From Dicyema japonicum (lineage: Eukaryota; Dicyemida; Rhombozoa; Dicyemidae): DNA of 64,000 bases. This document shows positions 2,620 to 60,680 of the stretch, one piece after another. The stretch is from the NCBI GenBank assembly GCA_011109175.1, contig RDEW01000001.1, positions 713,862-777,861 on the forward strand, written 5' to 3'. The translations under genes were made by a program, and so were the position numbers. Each line of letters starts with the position of its first letter. The first letter of the stretch is position 1. Under the pieces are notes generated by a model. The model was not told where the DNA came from. It did not search any database and was given only the letters and a program-made list of their open reading frames with translations.

Positions 2620-4298
2620 ATGCTCTATTCTTCATTAGACTGTGTTCTCAGACTTCCAATTCTCATAATTCTCGATCACTTCGGAGACTTACATGACAAT
2701 TTCCTAACAGCAGACGTACTTCCTTGTTTACTCAATGTTGGATTTTTTAAACTCCCATTAAGTCTATCAGGTATGGATTCTATTCATTGTAGTTATCCTC
2801 TATCTGATTTGTTGCCTTTTCCGTCCGCTTTCCTTCATTCTACGTCTCTACACACGTATTATCCTCATCCTCATTGCCATTCTGGTGAACTCAGCCTTTT
2901 CTCTACTTCAAATCAACATCAATGGAAGTTGCTTGCGATATACGACTTTTATTGTCGCCTTCCCCTTAATTTACGTGATGTGGTCCTCTCTGGAGTACAA
3001 GAGGAGTAAATTAGCTGTCATTTTCTGCTACACATCTTTGTATGCTTTCGTGTTGGCTGGTAAGGTGTCATCTCTCCTCTTTGGCCTTCTAGGACTGGTA
3101 CCTTTGATGATCTGTTTGTTTGAAGGAGTCAAGTTCCTTTCTCCCCGTTCTATGATTTCTGGGATTTTCAATATTAACCTAGATGGCATGGGACCGTTCT
3201 CGATTATCCTCAATTTCAACAGTCTGCGACTTTATGGATTCATTTTCTGTTTGATTCCCCCACTCATTAACCACTTTACGTGGGACTCATTGTTAGATTC
3301 TATTTTGGGGGAATTTTCATATAGTTATGTGAGGATTATCTGTTTGTCTGCCTACTTTTCTTATTTTGGTCGTGTTTTAGCATTTACTCTGTCACATTTC
3401 CGTATTGAGTCGGATGTGTACTTCATTTTGGACTTTCTTTACGCGGTGTTTGTTATTTGGATGTCCTTAGTGATTGGTCTTCCAAATTTTGAATCGTAAT
3501 TTTTGGTTTAATAGCAGGTCGGAAAGAGCGGGAATTTTGAGAAAGAATTTTTGGTTGGCTTTGCTGAATTCTCTGTTTTTGGTTCACGAAATGGTAAAAC
3601 GGCACATCAAAGATCACGGGGGGTTCCAAAATCTGCCTGGGTTCATGCCTCTTGTCTCCTCCATTATGGTTATCTTGGGCTCCACTCTAATTGGAATCTA
3701 CATGTTCTATACCAGGGTTGTAGACGCCTGGCTGTTGACTGTAATGCTCCTTGTTGCTGAGGTATACAAGTGGGTGGTTATTTAGAACAACGTTTCTGCT
3801 ATTTGCTGTCTCGTGTTGTACTTTTACTATAAATTTACTCAAAACTCTGAAAGTGAAAACGCTGGAAATTTTGAGTTTATTGTTGTTTTGGCGGGCGAAT
3901 CTGTTAATTTCGTGTTGGGAGTAATGATGCTCATCACTTCGATTTATACCTACTATCTGAAGGGACGCTTTTTTAGACTCCTGACAGTGTTACTGCACGT
4001 GTATGTGAATATATACGTGAAGGTCTGTTTTTGGTTATTGCAGTGGAAGGAGATATATGATTTGGTGAGATCCCACATTTGGATTCACATGGCCATAGGT
4101 AAGCTGCCAATGGCTTCACAGGACCAACTTGACAATCGGAGTAACATTTGCTCTATTTGCATTGATGATTTGGAATGTAAGGACTCGTGCTATCTCCATT
4201 GTACTCATGTTTTTCACGTGGCTTGTCTAAGAAAGTGGGCCGCTGTTAAGGAACTCTGTCCTGTATGTCTCGGCCCCCTTATTCTTACTAATAGATAG
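2620..4298 (+). CDS. TRC8/RNF139-like multi-pass RING-type E3 ubiquitin ligase with ultra-short introns
   Basis: TRC8/RNF139 is an ER membrane ubiquitin ligase that degrades misfolded or sterol-regulated membrane proteins. The N-terminus (LDCVLRLPILIILDHFGD) resembles the TRC8 start. Several hydrophobic helices follow, then FEFIVVLAGESVNFVLGVMM and LLHVYVNIYVKVCFW, which match TRC8's last helices. The C-terminus is a RING-H2 domain (about 4149-4280): CSIC, HCTHVFHVAC, LRKW, CPVC, eight metal ligands in C3H2C3 order. Three breaks become open if short introns are removed: an ambiguous first one (for example 2737-2770, 34 bp, or 2726-2762, 37 bp), 3496-3514 (19 bp, GTAATT...AATAG) and 3762-3785 (24 bp, GTATAC...TTTAG). 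The result is about 532-533 residues. The LRKW spacing and the helix preceding RING argue strongly for TRC8 over gp78 or HRD1. The start ATG at 2620 is the first in frame. An AATAAA lies 8 bp after the stop. Confidence 0.85.
3496..3514 (+). other. Candidate 19-bp intron in the TRC8-like gene
   Basis: Begins GTAAT and ends TTTAATAG. Removing it joins frame 2 (...LPNFES) to frame 3 (RSERAGILRKNFW) with no stop; unspliced, frame 2 ends at the TAA formed by the donor itself. Confidence 0.7.
3762..3785 (+). other. Candidate 24-bp intron in the TRC8-like gene
   Basis: Begins GTATAC and ends GTTATTTAG. It removes the only in-frame stop (TAG at 3783-3785) and joins LLVAE to NNVSAICC; seven extra residues plus a stop relative to TRC8 disappear. 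Confidence 0.7.
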
Positions 4299-46866: not shown

Positions 46867-48032
46867 TTAAAGAACAGGAAGATATTCCATTGATCTTATA
46901 TTTCGGCATTTAATAACAAATGTGATGAGTCCGATGATTGTAAGTGCGAGAAAAGAGAACATAATTCCTATAATTATAAAATTTTTTGAATCATTAGAAT
47001 TTGTATTTTTTCCAGGAGTTACTTTTTCAAAACACTCTGACTCTAAAATTCAGGAAAAATCAAACCTTTTCCAGTATAATGGGAATTAAACTCACTCTGA
47101 AGAATTTGTGCCTTAAATGATGAAAACTCAGCATATATGTCATCAGAAAATTTAGTGAGAGACAATTCGAAGTTACAGGAATTTCCAACATCAATCAATT
47201 TGGTTTTATTAGGACTCCAAGACCCGTTATAGATATTATTGATGACTATCTGAATTTTGGAAATATAATATTTGTTTTGAGACAAAATAAATGTAAAAAG
47301 TATCTCAAATTAAAACTCCTTAAGAGATAACACAACACTATTGTTATCAAAGTTAATCTTCGAATTCAGATTCTCGAAAACTAACAAATTATCAATCTAA
47401 TATTAAAATATACAATTTACAATTTCTACAGTGTGATTATAAAAAAAGGTGATTCTAAAATGCCCACTTAATATTCCTTTCAGTCGATTTTCCGCAATAA
47501 AATACCAATATTGAACATTTGGATCGTTAGATGGATCACAGTCATGTGCTAAATTAAATTATGTCAAACCTTTTCCAATAAAATATGGATTTGATTGTTT
47601 AATGTAGTATTCTATCACCAAAGAATATAATGTGAGAATATTACCATTCTCAAAACTTACGGACATATATCCGCATCTGTAATAATCTCCATGTTTAATA
47701 TTTGGTAGATTTGTTGTATTTGTGTAGGTTTTATTATCTTTGAGTGTTAACTATTAAATACTAGAATTTAATTCTATTTTTATTGAAATGTTGTAAAATT
47801 TGTCTGAGAATTCAATAAAAAATTGGTAGATCAAATTATTTGTTTTGATTGTAATTGGCATTTTATCATAAAAGTGGTGAGAAATAGTTTTAATTGAATA
47901 ATTGTTTGTCTACCATTATTATTCATAAAATACATTTGTAAGTGTACTTTTCAATACACTTTTAAAATATACTGACATTGGATGTTTAAAGTCGAAATTC
48001 CTGATTGAGGACAAAAATATTAACAACAACAT
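46867..48032 (-). pseudogene. LAMP-like gene, left copy, one nonsense codon
   Basis: Same six-exon structure as the intact copy at 58700-59864: exons 47934-48032, 47762-47909, 47570-47737, 47421-47548, 47066-47396, 46867-47042; introns 47910-47933 (24 bp), 47738-47761 (24), 47549-47569 (21), 47397-47420 (24), 47043-47065 (23). Encodes signal sequence MLLLIFLSSI, GDYYRCGYMSVSFENGN, VGNSCNFELSLTKFSDD, HYTGK joined to ESECFEKVTPGKN, a membrane helix and the tail RSMEYLPVL. Exon 5 has a TAA (SLKEF then stop) where the other copy reads SLKGNNLEI. Exon 1 is tandemly duplicated. Either a decaying paralogue or an assembly variant. Confidence 0.75.
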
Positions 48033-48182
48033 AATATGTAAAATGAACACGTTATAAAATACATTTGTAAGTGTACTTTTCAATACACTTTTAAAATATA
48101 CTGACATTGGATGTTTAAAGTCTAAATTCGTGATTGAAGACAAAAATATTAACAACAACATAATATGTAAAATGAACACGTC
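47925..48182. repeat. 129-bp tandem duplication covering exon 1 of the left LAMP-like copy
   Basis: ataaaatacatttgtaagtg begins units at 47925 and 48054. Each encodes MLLLIFLSSI, FKHPMSVYFKSVLKSTLTN. The right arm has only one copy, so this is either recent or an assembly product. Confidence 0.8.
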
Positions 48183-49732
48183 GATGTGTATAATTTAGGT
48201 CACTCGTTATATTATTGAATTTATTTTTAATAATTAAAAAAATGATTTTTATATTAATTTTATAATTACACTTATTTTCATGAATTCATTAATCAAGAAA
48301 GTCCTACACCATAATGCAAAGTTATACGTCTTTAAGAATTTCATGGTATTTTATCGTAATCCACCAAAAGTCCTTCGGTTTTGGCGGAATTTTTAATGAT
48401 CGAAGAAAAACTTAATCAGCGATATTCGTAAATGATCAAAACAACTATTTTATCGCACAATCGAATAAATATTTGTTACCAAATGATTTAATATATCTTT
48501 AAATTGTAAACGTATTTCCTTTAATTCGTCAGGGGAAATGGGTTCTCAATTATGAGACTGGCCACTAGTAGTTAACTGCTTGTTTTTGTATTAAACCGTT
48601 TTTATTTAAAAAACTTGTTACCAAATGATTTAATATATCTTTAAATTGAAAACATATTTCCTTTAAATCGTCAGGGGAAATGGGTTCTCAATTATGAGAC
48701 TGGCCACTAGTAGTTAACTGCTTGTTTTTGTATTAAACCGTTTTTATTTAAAAAAATATTAATACTAGGAGAATATTCTGAAGTGAATTGAATATAAAAA
48801 TTAAAGCCAGTATTAACAAATAATACAGATATTCATTAATAGGTGGCATAAAAGGAATTCATACACAAATCGTTAATTCATACACTAATTCATTAATAAA
48901 TTTTTGCTGCTTTTATGTGCTAAAGTGGATAGGATAAGATAGTAAATTGGTTTATTCGNCAGGGGAAATGGGTTCTTAATTATGAGACTGGCCACTAGTA
49001 GTTAACTGCTTGTTTTTGTATTAAACCGTTTTTATTTTAAAAAAATTTTAATACTAGGAGAATATTCTGAAGTGAATTGAATATAAAAATTAAAGCCAGT
49101 ATTAACAAATAATACAGATATTCATTAATAGGTGGCATAAAAGGAATTCATACACAAATCGTTAATTCATACACTAATACATTAATAAATTTTTGTTGCT
49201 TTTATGTGCTAAAGTGGATAGGATAAGATAGTAAATTGGTTTATTGGTCGGGCCTCTATTCCTTAAATGTCTAATTAATGACATACTAAGTCTCCCGGTG
49301 GTATGAATATAAGGATTTGTTTTTTCTCAAATCATAGCGAAATTAGCAGAAAGGTCACGAACAATGAAGCCAATGACAATTCCATCTAAACTTGAATGTT
49401 TTCATAAACTCATTTTATTAAAATTATACAATTTTATTTATTTAACAGTTCTTACGGAAGGAGCATGTATTGTTTCCATTACTTAAACCTCACCTTAGGC
49501 AAAAGTCACACTTTATTTTAAGAGTAGAAGCAGTAGTGTGAATTAATCAAAAGCATATCTAAGACATTGAAAATTTTCTTGACTTTTTTTTGTTTGTGAG
49601 TCCCAGAAGACAATTCAGTTCCGAGTGATGACATGCTCGCTGATAACGGCGTCACTCGTTAACCCTAATTTTATTTTTGTTATAATTTGGGCGATTTTTT
49701 TGACTTTATAAATGCGAAATTTTGACCTAAAA

Positions 49733-51144
49733 TCCGCCAATTTAGGGGATCATCAAAATCTGGCCTATTCGAGAGACTTATTGATTTTTTCGTCCATTAA
49801 TAATGTAAATCCAAAAAAATTATTTATAAACAAAAAATTCAGTAAGTTTTGATTTGTTTCTTTCGTGTCATTGAAGATCCAAGCTTTTCAATAGACTCAA
49901 GATTTTCGACATTAAAGAATTCTTCTTGATTATAGAATTTTTTTAATTTATTTGAGGCTAGAAAAGCCTCGCTAATAGTGACACCATTCTGACTTTCTTC
50001 AAGGGGTCCTTCACTATCAATTTCTTAAAGAATTCTTCTTGATTATAGAATTTTTTTAATTTATTTAAGGCTAGAAAAGCCTCGCTAATAGTGACACCAT
50101 TCTGACTTTCTTCAAGGGGTCCTTCACTATCAATTTCTTGTTCTATTTTCTCCGAATCATTCAAATCAAGTTCTTCATTTTCATTGTAGTCAACTTCGAT
50201 ATAAAGTCTCTCTTCTAAAGGATCACTTATGTTCATTTTGTCTAGAATATATTCTAATTTTTAATAACAGGGTTTTCATAATTTATATTTTCAATGTTTT
50301 GAATTCATTTTGCGTGCATTTGAATATTAAGAACTATCTACTTTTTTTAAGCATTGACTGAAAATCTGTCTTTCAATACTTAATAACCTGATTTAAAGTT
50401 ACTACAAACACTTTTGGACTGTATCATATTGTAAAATAAACCAGTTTCGTCGGCATTATAAACATTGAGCTCCATGGAGATTGATTTTATTTTTGATTAA
50501 TTCAATAAAATCTGATACCACATTAGGCTCACAATTTAAAGTTGCAGATTTTCCATGCATTTTTCATAACTTAAAACCATTCCTCTTTTTAAATTTAACA
50601 AGCTACCTTTTGGTTCCTTTGAATCAGTGATCTTACGTTTCTATGCAAATATTGTGGCTATCTCAGTAATAATTTAATCGTTCAAAATGGCTCCTTTAAC
50701 ATTCATTGAATTAACCTAGGAAATCTTATCATAATGATTTCACTTCACTTTAAATATTCTTTGCGAGAAATGTCAGATCGTAGTTATTCAACATATTTTC
50801 AGATCCTCTTTTACTTCTCAGATCATCAGTGAATTTAAGAGAAAAAAGTGCATTATATTTTTTGGAAAAAATTTCTGAAATTTTTATTGAGAGTATTCAA
50901 TATTCAATTCAATAAACTTTAAAATGGCAATTTTTGTTTGTTGTTTAATCGTGTGCAGCTACATTTCATAAAAACAACAATAAACAATGACAACGTGATA
51001 ATAAGTTATTTTAAAAAATATTTAAAATTAAGAGACATGGCGGATTCATTAAATAAATCTAGCGGATACAAGAAATTTTGTTAGAAAAAATGGCGGATTC
51101 GAGAATTTATTAGTTATAATCGGCGGATCCGAGAGACTTTACTG
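49733..51144 (-). mobile_element. pogo/Tigger-type DNA transposon with decayed transposase
   Basis: Right terminal repeat cgagagactttactg ends at 51144, followed by TA; the left terminus has lost its first bases. Minus strand shows the DDE catalytic block NVYNADETGLFYNMI (about 50425-50475) and the transposase C-terminus EEVDYNENEELDL-like sequence, SQNGVTISEAFLALNKLKKF (49958-50236). NADETGLF is diagnostic of the pogo/Tigger DDE domain. Stops interrupt the frame and the N-terminal DNA-binding part is not clear. A 113-bp tandem duplication lies at 49914-50139. Confidence 0.8.
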
Positions 51145-51639
51145 TAATTGTTTTAAAATGTAAGAATTATATATACTCTCTATATTTGGGGCACTTTTCT
51201 ATTGGGGCGGGGTTGTACTGTAGATTGATTTGCTTTTCTTCATAATAGTCGATTGTTTTGACAAATTATTGCGAAGCCACCTGTGTAGATGGCCTCTCTC
51301 CTTCTAACCTTGTTATGACAGCAACTAACCTAGACTCTTCTTCGGGGAGGCTAAAACCTTAAAGCTGAAGAAATACGTATGTCCCGGTGGACAGTTCATT
51401 TTTGATCAGTATCCGTGGAGACTTCAAAATTTAAAAAAAGCAGGTCAATGATTCTGCTAGACAGAATCAGATCGCTCGTCGCGAAGAAAAATGATAAGAA
51501 GTTTAAAAAAATATGATAAATTCAAGGTCATTATACCGCACAATCGATTGTTACAATTCATATAGAAAGTTGCTCAATTTTAATATCATTCTCTTAAGCG
51601 ATCTTAAAAAGAGATCTTCTAAGGCCCTATGACTTAACT
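51145..51639. other. Intergenic, short shared repeat only
   Basis: About 51280-51340 (gatggcctctctccttctaa, gacagcaactaacc) resembles 29495-29545, a weak dispersed repeat. No gene. Confidence 0.35.
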
Positions 51640-52130
51640 TGTCTCGGCGACAACGGTCTGCTCATGAAATCTAATCAAAGGCTGTTGCAATTGGTTATTT
51701 AAAGTTCTCGAATACTAGCAATGCCTCCTTAACATTCAATGGGGAATCTTATAATTTTGACTGCAAAAAGGTGTATGCAGATGCCACATTGCGATTCAGA
51801 TTTTTTCAGAGATAAAAAAACTGTGATCATATTAAAAAAACTGTGATCCTGTCTGGCGTAACCATAAAACAAGTTGAAAATGCAGAAGACCTTGACTACT
51901 TAAAAGAGAAAGCAAGAAAAGAGCTACTTGAAAGAGGATAATTACGAAATTATTATGAAAGTGCTTGGGACCATTTAAAATAAAAAAAACAACGAGAAAA
52001 TTAATAGTAGTTAAAGAACAGGAAGATATTCCATTGATCTTATATTTCGGTATTTAATAACAAATGTGATGAGTCTGATGATTGTAAGTGTTAGAAAAGA
52101 GAACATAATTCTTATAATTACAAAATTTTC
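51640..52130 (+). repeat. Third, partial copy of the duplicated gene pair
   Basis: Same orientation as the left arm. Carries the unrecognised gene (YDLTCLGDNGLLMKSNQRLL, FDCKKVYADATLRFRFFQR, KVENAEDLDYLKEKARKELL ERG, stop 51939-51941) and only the last coding part of the LAMP-like gene (complement of 52011 onward), breaking off near 52130. Frame breaks in the first gene could reflect short introns (for example a 25-bp GTCTGC...CAAAG) but are not resolved. Confidence 0.65.
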
Positions 52131-52399
52131 GAATCTCGAATGTTACAAATTTTGAATGGAACGTAGACAAGTCTACATTGAGAGGGAACAAGGGAGTTAA
52201 TAGTTAATTCCCAAACTAAGGAAATTAATAAAATTTTCAATTCTTAGAGGTTTCTTAGATTTTATTTGCAGTCAATAGGAAATTGAGGTTGAGATGGTGA
52301 CGACATCTCTATTGCACAAATGTCTGAAACGAACTTAAAGCTCTTATTATAATTAGCACTTTTACGAGAGCCATGATATCTATAGCCCCGCATGTACAG

Positions 52400-52779: not shown

Positions 52780-54872
52780 CCTAGCGTCGGATCCCTTGAT
52801 CCTCTTTCCAAAATTTTTTGACTGGTGCAAGAATCTTGTTTTCTTTCGTACTTGGGACATCAAACAACTTTTTTCCCAAGGCCAACTTTATTGCTGACCT
52901 TCTCGACTTTTCCATGAGTAACATTATCCTATCTCTTTGGCGAGAGAAAAACCACGCTTCACATTCTTATAGTAGCTCCGGTAGAATAATCCTCATGAAG
53001 ATAAACAAGAAGGTCTCCAAGCTTACGAAAAACTTGCTTGTACAGAGAAGCGCTTGTAGCGTCTTCTTCCTTCTTCGTCTGACATCCTCCATGAAGGAAC
53101 CTCCTCCATCGATGACTATCCCGAGGTAGCGGAGTGAATTTACTTTTAGAATACAAAGCGAGTAGGGCTGCGTAGGATGTCTCCGTAGACGACTAACTCT
53201 CAAGTATCTGGACTTCTCAGTAAAGAGTCTCATCCCTCTCTTGGAGCACCAATCTTGCACTTGGTCAATGAATGACTTGATTCTTCTTTCCGATAGAGTT
53301 GACTTCCTCGACGTATTCGTAATCAGAATATCATCTGCGTATATTATCAGTTTGGTGTTCGCATCCGACGGAGTAGGGAAATCAGACAGAAACACATTGA
53401 ACAGAAGAACGCCCCTCTTCAATAGGAAATCCTTTGACATATTTGCCCCAACACGTATTCGGGAAGTACGTCCTGTTAAGAAATCTTTTATCTATGTGAA
53501 GAGTTTCTTTTGGATGTTAGCAGCCGCTAGCCTTGATAGGAGGGCTTTATGCCACACCCTATCGAGGCCTTGGACAGGTCCAAACACACCAGGTTGATTT
53601 GCCTCTTGAATTCCAGACCTCTCAGTACCATCGAATGCATGTGATGGATACAATCCGTGCAGGATTTTCCGGGTCTGAAGTTACATTGTTCCGCGAGGAG
53701 GAAACAGGTCTCTTCCATGTGTTCGTTTAGTCTCTTTAAGATAATTCTCACAGCAATCTTGGAGATAGAGCAGATTAGGCTGATTGGCCTATAGTTGAGG
53801 GGGTCTCTCCCCGACTTTCCTGATTTAAGTATCATCCTGACAATAGAGATTTTCCAGCGTCTTGAAATATATTCATGATCAATGCTTGCGTTGAATAAGT
53901 TTTTCAGCACGAGCAGCAGATCTTCTTGACCTTCCTTGAACATTCTCATGCTAATATGGTCATGTCCAGGGCCGTTAGCTTTGCATGCTCTAATAGCAAT
54001 AACGATGTCCTCTTGGTTATTTTCATATCAGTATCTTTGAGATTGTCCGGGGAGTAAGTAAGAAGTTCTTTTGAAGCTCTCAACTCTTCCCTCGGGATCA
54101 GCTCCGTCGGGTTGACTCCCTGGATACGGTCTAGTTGCTTCTTAAAAATATCTGGGACTTCTTCCATAGAATATGATCCACCTTCCGGTTTGTTCAGAAA
54201 GATTTTCATATCAGTTCTCTTCTGGCCTGTTATTCTTTTGTAGATCTTCTAGAACGAACGGTCTTTGGTTTTAGTTTGCTTCCTTCGACCCTCCAACATT
54301 GTTCTATTGCCAGTCATGTTCCCTCTTCAATGGCTTTTTTGATTATCTTTAGTTGACCAGTCAATGTAATCCATCCAGTCTACACATCTTCTGAGTTCGT
54401 TCCTCAGTCGGTTTATTTCTTTAATCATAGATAGCGTAGAAGGAGAGAAATTAATGCTCTTCTTATAAATGGTACCGGGGAGTCTCCTCCTGGCGTAAAG
54501 TGATATGTATATCTCCATCACAATTGAAAGGTCTCTGTCTATGTTGTCAATATCACTTCGGGGATAAGGCCCCTCCTTCCAGTTTTTGAGGTTTCTAGAT
54601 ATGTATTTTCTATAGTGTCCCCAATTCAGTCTAGTAGCCTGTGAACAATGACTCCGTAGTGTCCGGAGTCAAGTTCAGTGACATCTCTTGAGGGATGTGG
54701 TCGCTCCCGATTTCCCACATGATCATCGGTCTTTCCACATAAGTGTAGAGAAGTTGTGACACCAGGAACACCCCAGGCATGTCTCCCCCGTAGTATGAGA
54801 AGTGATTCGGCTTCTCTAACGTCATAATCTCGAAGCCAGTCATTTCGCTCAATTTTCTTAGCCTGATTCCAT
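52780..54872 (-). pseudogene. Jockey-like LINE, endonuclease end through reverse transcriptase
   Basis: Minus strand in order: endonuclease end IMWEIGSDHIPQEMSLNL (54631-54852), a basic linker EINRLRNELRRCVDWMDYID, VPDIFKKQLDRIQGVNP, reverse-transcriptase fingers RMILKSGKSGRDPLNYRPIS and EQCNFRPGKSCTDCIHHM, LVCLDLSKA, then palm LIIYADDILITN, DWCSKRGMRLFTEKS and SLRYLGIVID. Motif order and YADDILI place it with Jockey/R1-type elements. Short deletions and frameshifts (for example after LDLSKA near 53540) make it inactive. Truncated upstream at the N at 54873. Confidence 0.9.
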
Positions 54873-57347: not shown

Positions 57348-58699
57348 ACGGTCATGGGGATCAGGACATCGACGTAGTTCGTTTTTGCAAACATTGTTTC
57401 CTTTTCAAAAAAACTATAATATTTTTTGTTGTCAAAAAAAGAATTCTTGTTAACCGAATAGACTTTATTCGACTATATGCTTCGAGGTACGATTAAAAAA
57501 AATAATTTGAGTCACTCGAACTCTCAAGATAAGGATACGAAGATTGCACTTTTTTTAGGTCAAAATTTCCCATTTATAAAGTCAAAAAAATCGCCCAAAT
57601 TATAACAAAAATAAAATTGGGGTTGACGAGTGACGCCGTTATCAGCGAGCGTATCATCTCTGCGGAACTGAATTGTCTTCTGGGAATAGACTCACAAACA
57701 AGAAAAAAAGTCAACAAAATTTTCAGTGTCTTAGATATGCCTTGGATTAATTAACATTACTGGTCTTACTCTTAAAATAAAGTGTGACGTCTTCCTAAGG
57801 TGAGGTTAAAGTAATTGAAACAATACATACTTCTTCCGTAAGGACTGTTAAATAAATAAAATTGTATAATTTCAATAAAATGAGTTTATGACAACATTCA
57901 ATTTTAAATTAAATTGTCATCGGCTTCATTGTTTGTGACCTTGCGGCTAATTTCGTTTGAGAAAAACAAATTTATATATTCATTCCATCGAGAGACATAG
58001 TAGGTAATTAAGTAGACATTTTGTGGAATAAAGGTTCGAACAATTAACCAATTTACTATCTTATCCTATCTATTTTAAGAAAATCAGAGCAGCAAAAATT
58101 TATTAATGAATTTGTGTATGAATAAACGATTTGTGTATGAATTCCTTTTATGCCACCTATTAATAAATATCTGTATTATTTGTTAATACTGGCATTAATT
58201 TTTATATTCAATTCACTTCAGAATATTCTCCTAGTATTAATCTTTTATTTTTTAAATAAAAACGTTTTAATACAAAAACAAGCAGTTAACTACTAGTGGC
58301 CAGTCTCATAATTGAGAACCCATTTTCCCTGACGAATTAAAGGAAATACGTTTACAATTTAAAGATATATTAAATCATTTGGTAACAAATATTTATTCGA
58401 TTGTGGGATAAAATAGTTGTTTTGATCATTTACGAATATCGCTGATTAAGTTTTTCTTCGATCATTAAAGATTCCGCCAAAACCGAAGGACTTTTGGTGG
58501 ATTACGATAAAATACCATGAAATTCTTAAAGACGTTTAACTTTGCATTATGGAGTAGGACTTTCTTGATTAATGAATTCATGAAAATAAGTGTAATTATA
58601 AAATTAATATAAAAATCATTTTTTAATTATTAAAAATAAATTCAATAATATAACAAGTGACCTAAATTATACACATCGACGTGTTCATTTTACATAATT

Positions 58700-59864
58700 A
58701 TGTTGTTGTTAATATTTTTGTCTTCAATCACGAATTTAGACTTTAAACATCCAATGTCAGTATATGTAAAAAGTGTATTGAAAAGTACACTTACAAATGT
58801 ATTTATGAATAATAATGGTAGACAAATAATTATTCAATTAAAACTATTTCTGCGGTGTATTATGGTAAAATGCCATTTACAATCAAAAGAAATATCTACC
58901 AATTTTTTATTAAATTCTCAGACAAATTTTACAACATCTCAATAAAAATAGAATTAAATTCTAGTATTTAATAGTTAACACTCAAAGATAATAAAACCTA
59001 CACAAATACAACAAATCTTCCAAATATTAAACATGGAGATTATTACAGATGCGGATATATGTCCGTAAGTTTTGAGAATGGTAATACTCTCACATTATAT
59101 TCTTTGTTGTTAAAATACTACACTAAACTATCATATCCATATTTCATTGGAAAAGGTTTGACATAATTTAATTTAGCACATGACTGTGATCCATCTAACG
59201 ATCCAAATGTTCAATATTGGTATTTTATTGCGGAAAATCGATTGAAAGGAATATTAAGTGGAAATTTTAGAATCACACGTTTTCATAATCACAATGTTGA
59301 AATAGTAAATTGTATATTTTAATATTAGATTGATGATTTGTCATTAATTTACGAGAATCTGGATTCGAAGATTAATTTTGATAACAATAGTTTTGAGTTA
59401 TCTCTTAAGGGGAATAATTTAGAGATACTTTTTACATTTATTTTGTCTCAAAACAAATATTATATTTCCAATATTCAGATAGTCATCGATGATATCTATA
59501 ATGGGTCTTGGACTCCTAATAAGAGCAAATTGATTGATGTTGGAAATTCCTGTAACTTCAAATTGTCTCTCACTAAATTTTCTGATAACATATATGCTGA
59601 ATTTTCATCATTTAAGGCACAAATTATTCTGAGTGAATTTAAATCCCATTATACTGGAAAAGGTTTGATTTTTCCTAAATTTTAGAGTCAGAATGTTTTG
59701 AAGAAGTAACTCCTGTAAAAAATACAAATTCTAATCATTCAAAAAATTTTATAATTATAGGAATTATGATATCTGTTCTAACACTTACAATAATTGGAGT
59801 CATCACATTTGTCATAAAATACCGAAATATAATAAGACCAATGGAATATATTCCTATTTTATAA
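58700..59864 (+). CDS. LAMP-like type I lysosomal membrane glycoprotein, six exons, five 21-24 bp introns
   Basis: LAMPs are heavily glycosylated proteins of the lysosome membrane. Exons: 58700-58798, 58822-58963, 58988-59155, 59177-59304, 59329-59662, 59686-59864 (1050 bp, 349 residues; phases 0,1,1,0,1 all consistent). Seen in the product: signal peptide MLLLIFLSSITN; a luminal region with four cysteines paired by spacing as in a LAMP domain (YYRCGYMSV to AHDCDPSND, 37 residues between; VGNSCNFKLS to GKESECFEE, 39 between); many N-x-S/T sites; membrane helix FIIIGIMISVLTLTIIGVI; and a 15-residue tail RNIIRPMEYIPIL ending in YIPI, a tyrosine-based YxxPhi lysosomal sorting signal. The GNSC...TGKESEC-helix-Yxx layout closely follows LAMP1/2. 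Unspliced, every exon ends in a stop within a few codons. The left copy preserves the same splice sites. Confidence 0.8.
58799..58821 (+). other. Intron 1 of the LAMP-like gene (23 bp)
   Basis: GTATTTATGA...ATGGTAG, phase 0. The homologous intron in the left copy is 24 bp with one extra T, yet both splice to the same frame. Confidence 0.8.
58964..58987 (+). other. Intron 2 of the LAMP-like gene (24 bp)
   Basis: GTATTTAATA...CTCAAAG, with a TTAAC branch-like motif; phase 1. Contains in-frame TAA and TAG. Confidence 0.8.
59156..59176 (+). other. Intron 3 of the LAMP-like gene (21 bp)
   Basis: GTTTGACATA...ATTTAG, phase 1; identical in the left copy. Contains an in-frame TAA. Confidence 0.8.
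59305..59328 (+). other. Intron 4 of the LAMP-like gene (24 bp)
   Basis: GTAAATTGTA...ATATTAG, phase 0; identical ends in the left copy. Contains an in-frame TAA. Confidence 0.8.
59663..59685 (+). other. Intron 5 of the LAMP-like gene (23 bp)
   Basis: GTTTGATTTT...ATTTTAG, phase 1; joins HYTGK to ESECFEE and shifts into the frame of the membrane helix. Confidence 0.85.
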
Positions 59865-59931
59865 CAGCAATTAATTTCCTCGTTGTTTTTTTATTTTAAA
59901 TTCTTCCAGCACGTTCATAATAATTTCGTAA

Positions 59932-60200
59932 TTATCCTCTTTCAAGTAGCTCTTTTCTTGTTTTGTCTCTTAAGTAGTCATGGTCTTTTGCATTTTCAAC
60001 TTTTTTTCTGACATCGTGATTATGGAATGCGCCCAGACAGGATCATAGTATTTTATTCTATCTTGAAAAGTCTGATTCGCAATGTGGCATCGGCATACAT
60101 ATATTTAGAGTTAGAGAACTTAAATAATCTATTACAAAAGCGTCTAACCAGATTTTATTAGCAGACTGTTGTCGCCGAGACGAGTGAAGTCATGGGGCCT
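59932..60200 (-). pseudogene. 3' end of the unrecognised gene, right copy
   Basis: Minus strand: DFTRLGDNSLLIKS, then YMYADATLRIRLFKIE, then AFHNHDVRKKVENAKDHDYL RDKTRKELLERG and a stop at 59934-59932. Compared with the copy at 51640 it lacks about 60 bp in the middle. Convergent with the LAMP-like gene (68 bp between stops). Confidence 0.4.
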
Positions 60201-60680
60201 CAAAATTTTTTTTAAGATTGCTTATGTCAATAAGATCGATATTGAGCAACCTTCTATATAAATTGTAACAATCGATTTTCCTTATAATGACCTTAAATTT
60301 GAAGACCATGACATCGGTCCCTGATTTTTAAAGGAAAAACAAAATTTCTAATCTTGTACAAAAACATGTTCGACGTAATATATAACAAAAATGGGAGACC
60401 TTATAAATTTGGATTGGTTAAAGTCAAATTCTTGAACGGGTTAGGGTGAATTAGAATGGATTAGGATGTATTAGAGAACGATTTTGGGTAATTAGAGCAT
60501 CGGTTGTTTCTATACATTCATAAAGTTTATTTTATTGACAGAATACGATGTTCGAACTCTAATTAAATTCACTTTTAAGTTTTATCCATAAATTCTTTTT
60601 TTTATTTTTGATATTAATATATTATTACTATAAATAAATCCTTAGTTAAACGCAATTCAAATTTTATTATACATAATTCA
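60201..60680. other. No recognised feature; weak TTAGG-like motifs
   Basis: 60430-60500 contains scattered gggttaggg, gattagga and attagag motifs, similar in style to 28806-28910. No gene. Confidence 0.35.

Follow-up and report, generated by a model that had tools for sequence, protein, structure and literature searches.

A fast-changing Dicyema japonicum gene family with introns of 21-24 bp and a probable LAMP-like membrane glycoprotein product

We analysed a 64,000-nucleotide window of the Dicyema japonicum genome (contig RDEW01000001.1, forward strand; positions below are those of this window) and within it the gene at 58700-59864, which had originally been predicted to encode a protein resembling the lysosome-associated membrane proteins (LAMP). 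This gene belongs, as an intact copy, to a large family that counts about 126 or more loci. Taken as a whole, the evidence makes it probable that this dicyemid family consists of tiny-intron genes and that the member studied here specifies a LAMP-like membrane glycoprotein, for which an endocytic coat or receptor would be the most likely role. The gene structure, the family, the repeat architecture and the slow evolution of the introns were obtained directly by computation.

Results

Gene structure and product

Splicing of the six exons (Table 1) yields 1050 nt, comprising 349 codons and a TAA stop codon, and the consistent phases and length of the original prediction were borne out both by this splice and by the introns of paralogues. 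The five introns, of 23, 24, 21, 24 and 23 bp in order, all begin with GT and end with AG (5/5); retention introduces an in-frame stop in the case of introns 2-5 and a shift of frame in the case of intron 1. An exhaustive count found no open chain between the same ATG and TAA with zero to four GT-AG introns of 18-35 bp, and eight such chains with five introns. An open frame was thus insufficient to fix the model, and the choice of exons needed relatives. The introns lie at codon/phase 33/0, 81/1, 137/1, 179/0 and 291/1, and all five positions were identical in 21 of 40 fetched copies when these were compared by spliced alignment, with the window copy entered once. These conserved introns were nearly always 21-24 bp long despite protein divergence of up to 40%, and at least three of them were kept in copies of only 35-41% identity (L015, L016, L017 and L031); intron 3 of one intact copy, L014, measured 35 bp. 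GT-AG ends, a length of about 20-30 bp and conserved position and phase are all features of dicyemid introns, and all were found here. At the level of sequence comparison, the paralogues thereby confirm the six-exon model as a real gene and select the correct chain.

The spliced product has a hydrophobic N-terminus, eight N-glycosylation sequons, cysteines at residues 102, 140, 254 and 294, a single hydrophobic segment starting at residue 312 and the tail MEYIPIL, in agreement with the predicted signal peptide, single membrane helix and YxxPhi motif. The last of these was present in 24 of 27 readable tails of the family and missing from several distant members. The YYRCG motif containing C102 was invariant in all 12 rows of alignment A1, which holds 12 of 17 prepared sequences, two of them (L009 and L034) trimmed on the C-terminal side.

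Table 1. Features of the gene, its product and related copies in the window
Feature	Position	Strand	Remarks
Exon 1, residues 1-33	58700..58798	+	N-terminal hydrophobic stretch / signal peptide at about residues 1-16
Intron 1, 23 bp, phase 0	58799..58821	+	24 bp in 16/21 compared copies
Exon 2, residues 34-81	58822..58963	+	residues 36-47 (58828-58863) form a variable segment
Intron 2, 24 bp, phase 1	58964..58987	+	in-frame stops
Exon 3, residues 81-137	58988..59155	+	YYRCG motif, C102 (59050-59052)
Intron 3, 21 bp, phase 1	59156..59176	+	in-frame stop; most variable of the five
Exon 4, residues 137-179	59177..59304	+	C140 (59185-59187)
Intron 4, 24 bp, phase 0	59305..59328	+	in-frame stops
Exon 5, residues 180-291	59329..59662	+	most of LAMP-like repeat 2, with C254; residues 181-191 (59332-59364) form a variable segment
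Intron 5, 23 bp, phase 1	59663..59685	+	in-frame stop; slowest-changing intron (pairwise 0.025)
Exon 6, residues 291-349 and TAA	59686..59864	+	C294; membrane helix beginning near residue 312; MEYIPIL tail
LAMP-like repeat 1 with its introns, residues 17-150 approximately	58748..59217	+	hhalign, repeat 1 versus repeat 2; weak versus LAMP
LAMP-like repeat 2 with its introns, residues 151-300 approximately	59218..59714	+	profile alignments, structural re-ranking
Second family copy (L013)	46873..48161	-	one internal stop, exon 1 duplicated, introns conserved
Third, partial copy	51518..52157	-	end of last exon (residues 301-348) and 3' flank only
Duplicated stretch around the gene	57526..60300	+	flank homology to other copies; ends vary between copies

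Intron size in the genome

The introns had been singled out as near the smallest size known for animals; their tiny size stands, but they are not special in this genome. Exon-gap arithmetic on chaperonin, kinesin and PAX genes of the same assembly placed 41 of 49 implied introns at 15-35 bp with a median of 23, the remaining eight values being -7, -1, -1, 1, 1, 11, 46 and 47, with none between 60 and 200. This arithmetic was restricted to neighbouring matches whose profile gap lay between -20 and 8, drawn from three match lists (40/40, 47/70 and, for PAX, 8/8 rows), and discarded values outside -10 to 200 bp, so that introns above 200 bp could not appear. Published values for dicyemids are alike, namely a mean of 26.2 bp in Dicyema acuticephalum (n=16; PMC2222250), a median of 27 bp in Dicyema sp., with 57 bp in an orthonectid (PMC6543705), and a mean of 38.2 bp in D. 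japonicum, whose genome is given as 67.5 Mb with 36.7% GC (PMC6736024). Introns of 21-24 bp are therefore the normal size here and a known dicyemid trait.

A large family of loci

A six-frame search of the genome (64,672,829 bases, 191 contigs) with the window protein gave at least 132 matches, corresponding to 68 loci on 34 contigs, and a second search with a distant member as query added 58 loci, bringing the total to at least 126 on 48 contigs. Both searches score the best candidates only, making the match counts lower bounds, and the loci include partial and broken copies. Clustering used 84 of the 132 rows of the first search (one entered twice) and 71 rows of the at least 156 matches of the second, the remainder being judged by eye to be pieces of listed loci; some adjacent pieces may have been split or merged in arriving at 126, an example being two entries on contig C149 separated by 1 kb. 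No relative was found among 5.8 billion proteins, the family being matched in this genome only, and the ortholog status suggested for the gene could not be sustained for one member of such a family.

Loci lay 50 kb or less apart in 101 pairs, against 12.2 expected, and the two search sets clustered separately, with 45 and 51 pairs within sets and 5 between. Three copies (L022, L023 and L024; C115:2188934-2194677) lie head to tail in an array whose unit measures about 2.28 kb. Growth of the family through tandem and segmental duplication is the most likely explanation. Forty of the 68 first-search loci were fetched for spliced alignment; on a strict reading seven were intact (the window gene, L011, L045, L033, L014, L028 and L020), and the other 33 carried a frameshift, a stop, a missing part or an unresolved model.

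Slow introns and a fast-changing protein

Tree-based tests were carried out on 21 copies, seven intact and 14 not. Intron interiors accumulated 40 changes over 96 sites (0.417 per site), the corresponding values being 1.066 for codon positions 1+2 and 1.146 for synonymous sites, so that introns changed more slowly than codon positions 1+2 (2.5-fold; P 3e-11) and than synonymous sites (P 6e-11). Pairwise differences in the same copies were 0.063 for introns, 0.091 for fourfold sites, 0.128 for codon positions 1+2 and 0.198 for the 3' flank. Among intact copies the 5' flank (0.068) was no faster than their introns (0.064), and among non-intact copies it reached 0.215. Taken singly, introns 1-5 differed by 0.038, 0.071, 0.124, 0.051 and 0.025, and intron 3, at 0.124, cannot be called slow. 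The splicing signals thus stayed constrained, clearly so in four of the five introns, while the protein varied almost freely.

The ratio of nonsynonymous to synonymous change (N/S) was 0.91 on the tree, and the NG86 method gave a median ratio of 0.88 over 253 pairs of 23 copies. In the seven intact copies amino-acid changes were not overdispersed (variance/mean 0.99) but were clustered along the chain (lag-1 autocorrelation 0.194, equalled in 0/2000 permutations) and peaked at two places, residues 36-47 and residues 181-191. Such clustering fits diversification of exposed segments. Two points weigh against this reading, namely that single-site tests returned three weak candidates only, and that relaxed constraint can also bring N/S near 1; given these few candidates and the 33 of 40 copies that are not intact, the pattern may also stem from relaxed constraint.

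Resemblance to LAMP

Most likely the product is a glycoprotein of type I membrane topology whose luminal side comprises two LAMP-like beta domains in tandem. Its cysteines form one pair per domain (102/140 and 254/294 in the window copy) in 7/7 intact copies, five of which carry a fifth cysteine close to the end of the membrane helix, and the two repeats align to each other in hhalign. In profile comparisons, which used four LAMP sequences only, repeat 2 and the stacked repeats scored against LAMP above 300/300 shuffles, repeat 1 above 296/300, and repeat 2 of the distant members above 150/150. The score of repeat 2 against LAMP was 20.5 with the -glob option and 28.4 without it. The match is collinear, with Y-x-C and F-G...C motifs in common and a cysteine pair whose placement resembles that of the second LAMP disulfide, and structural re-ranking put LAMP chains in three of the top five places. 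The product shows the pair of luminal domains, the lone membrane helix and the short, motif-bearing sorting tail of a LAMP; a hinge is absent, and the motif is not universal among the distant members.

Several results tell against a LAMP assignment. The Pfam profile search that had been proposed as a check gave 15.6 bits for the spliced product (PF01299), below the cut-off of 27.2, and this profile matched 5 of 12 family members at all, with a best E of 0.015 and a genome-wide best of 19.3 bits. LAMP domains are defined by two conserved disulfides each (PMC3409847); all seven intact copies lack this arrangement, the first disulfide having no counterpart. The HH-suite probability versus LAMP was 7-11%, scores fell versus LAMP subsets, and the comparison involving LAMP-1 domain 1 gave 16.2 versus 24.1. 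LAMP kinship in the form of a remote, fold-level resemblance is thus tentatively supported but not proven, and the predicted layout does not hold: instead of making up a single LAMP domain, the four cysteines are divided into one pair for each of two tandem domains, corresponding to the second LAMP disulfide only.

Discussion

Proposed role and competing explanations

As to splicing, location and function, we infer the following sequence of events. The short gene would be transcribed and its five introns recognised and removed by the spliceosome; the product would enter the secretory path, be glycosylated and fold into two beta domains, and its tail, with the YxxPhi motif and an acidic-dileucine-like end, would retrieve it into endocytic membranes. 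There, on the apical to lysosomal membranes of the endocytic route by which epidermal cells feed, it may serve as a glycan-bearing coat or receptor, some of its luminal parts continuing to change while the family duplicates. Dicyemid epidermal cells absorb nutrients from host urine through endocytosis, and the D. japonicum genome paper links its most amplified clusters to endocytosis (PMC6736024); a glycoprotein coat of endocytic membranes is the simplest role, to which we would give a little less than an even chance.

The same features could belong to a variable surface coat, whose luminal segments would diversify against the cephalopod host in the manner of parasite antigen families while the tail served for recycling only. 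The number of loci and their local clustering, the N/S of 0.91 with two clustered variable segments, and the many broken copies beside intact ones would suit such a coat; the sorting motif in most tails is suited to internal membranes, an N/S value near 1 could also arise under relaxed constraint, single-site tests yielded just three weak candidates, and no evidence of switching was found. We consider this coat somewhat unlikely. It is less likely again that the resemblance to LAMP is convergent and the proteins an unrelated beta-rich membrane family, as the Pfam score under the cut-off, the HH-suite probability of 10-11%, the missing first disulfide and the lack of a match in 5.8 billion proteins might suggest, since the collinear profile match beyond all shuffles, the common motifs and the three LAMP chains near the top of the structural ranking argue otherwise.

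Two further explanations concern the copies themselves. Were the family mostly dead, with relics spread among repeats and the intact frame a recent survivor, one could understand why 33 of 40 copies are not cleanly intact, why flanks are common to copies and why LINE pieces occur elsewhere in the window. However, broken copies too keep slow introns (0.063, against 0.139 at codon positions 1+2 and 0.215 in the 5' flank), seven copies are intact where a neutral simulation at 5% divergence kept a stop-free frame in about 4% of runs, and constant element ends are lacking; this explanation seems improbable. That the gene is cargo of a mobile element, or the envelope gene of an endogenous virus, is very improbable indeed: the copies are dispersed and have flanks in common, but they also hold five conserved introns and include a head-to-tail array, their flank ends are heterogeneous rather than constant, and no terminal repeats were noticed by eye at common ends, where no formal repeat search was made.

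Significance

A literature search combining dicyemids with lysosome-associated proteins found no paper on such a family, and the D. japonicum paper mentions, for gene clusters exceeding six copies, ten that are well characterised (PMC6736024). A fast-changing, expanded LAMP-like family of more than 100 copies is apparently undescribed. In the published annotation, repeats of more than 30 occurrences were masked ahead of transcript mapping and Pfam domains were called at E 1e-5 (PMC6736024), and the family could have escaped through repeat masking and the domain cut-off. The stronger proposal, of an undescribed LAMP-derived family with exposed segments under positive selection and most introns barely changing, which would be a candidate for a variable coat facing the host and overlooked through masking and domain cut-offs, is offered tentatively, as the odds are against it. 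The published dicyemid gene count of 5,012 is among the smallest of animal gene sets, and about 126 or more loci equal 2.5% of it; so large a family in a reduced animal would indicate a main interface, either feeding by endocytosis or contact with the host. Alignment of the copies further reveals which bases of an intron of 21-24 bases may vary, offering a natural test of minimal spliceosome needs.

Other features of the window

In the second copy (L013), the first exon and start occur as a tandem duplicate, 129 bp apart (47919-48194, reverse strand). The sharp end at 60300 of the duplicated stretch is a junction specific to the window copy. At 57526-57530 some copies (e.g. L035 and L046) hold about 420-435 bp of extra DNA whose flanks overlap by 5 bases, as if a small insertion with target duplication were absent from the window copy. 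Fragments of LINE-type reverse transcriptase and endonuclease (PF00078, PF03372) lie at 304-2532 and 52967-54027, both on the reverse strand. At 2762-4298 (forward strand) a hydrophobic frame resembling a membrane protein precedes one with a RING finger (PF13639); the two are possibly one membrane E3 ligase gene split by short introns. Repeated acidic frames occupy 49839-50260 (reverse strand), a stretch of which presumably resembles the C-terminal part of Tigger/jerky transposases; a Pfam search of 49961-50260 gave no match.

Comparison with known systems

The introns are like the miniaturised introns of dicyemids (PMC2222250, PMC6543705, PMC6736024), uniformly GT-AG and in the twenties of bases, with no difference in kind; what is added here is that, within a family that evolves fast, four of the five are slower to change than the codons. 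The tiny introns of ciliates and nucleomorphs (sizes quoted in PMC2222250) match in size range, but unlike those genomes the present one has an animal gene set (PAX, homeodomain) and standard stop codons. With parasite surface multigene families such as stevor and SERA, the family shares large size, fast evolution and membrane or surface proteins; the protein is a different one, however, and for the present family surface location, switching and host contact are hypothetical. LAMP-1 and LAMP-2 (PF01299; PDB 4akm, 5gv0, 5gv3) offer the closest architecture, that of a type I glycoprotein with two tandem luminal domains, sequons and a short YxxPhi tail, together with a pair like the second disulfide, a Y-x-C start (clearest in distant members) and an F-G...C end. 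In contrast to LAMP-1 and LAMP-2, which are encoded by few genes, the family described here has one cysteine pair per domain rather than two, no hinge, a Pfam score that stays under the cut-off, some 126 or more loci and a tail motif that several distant members lack.
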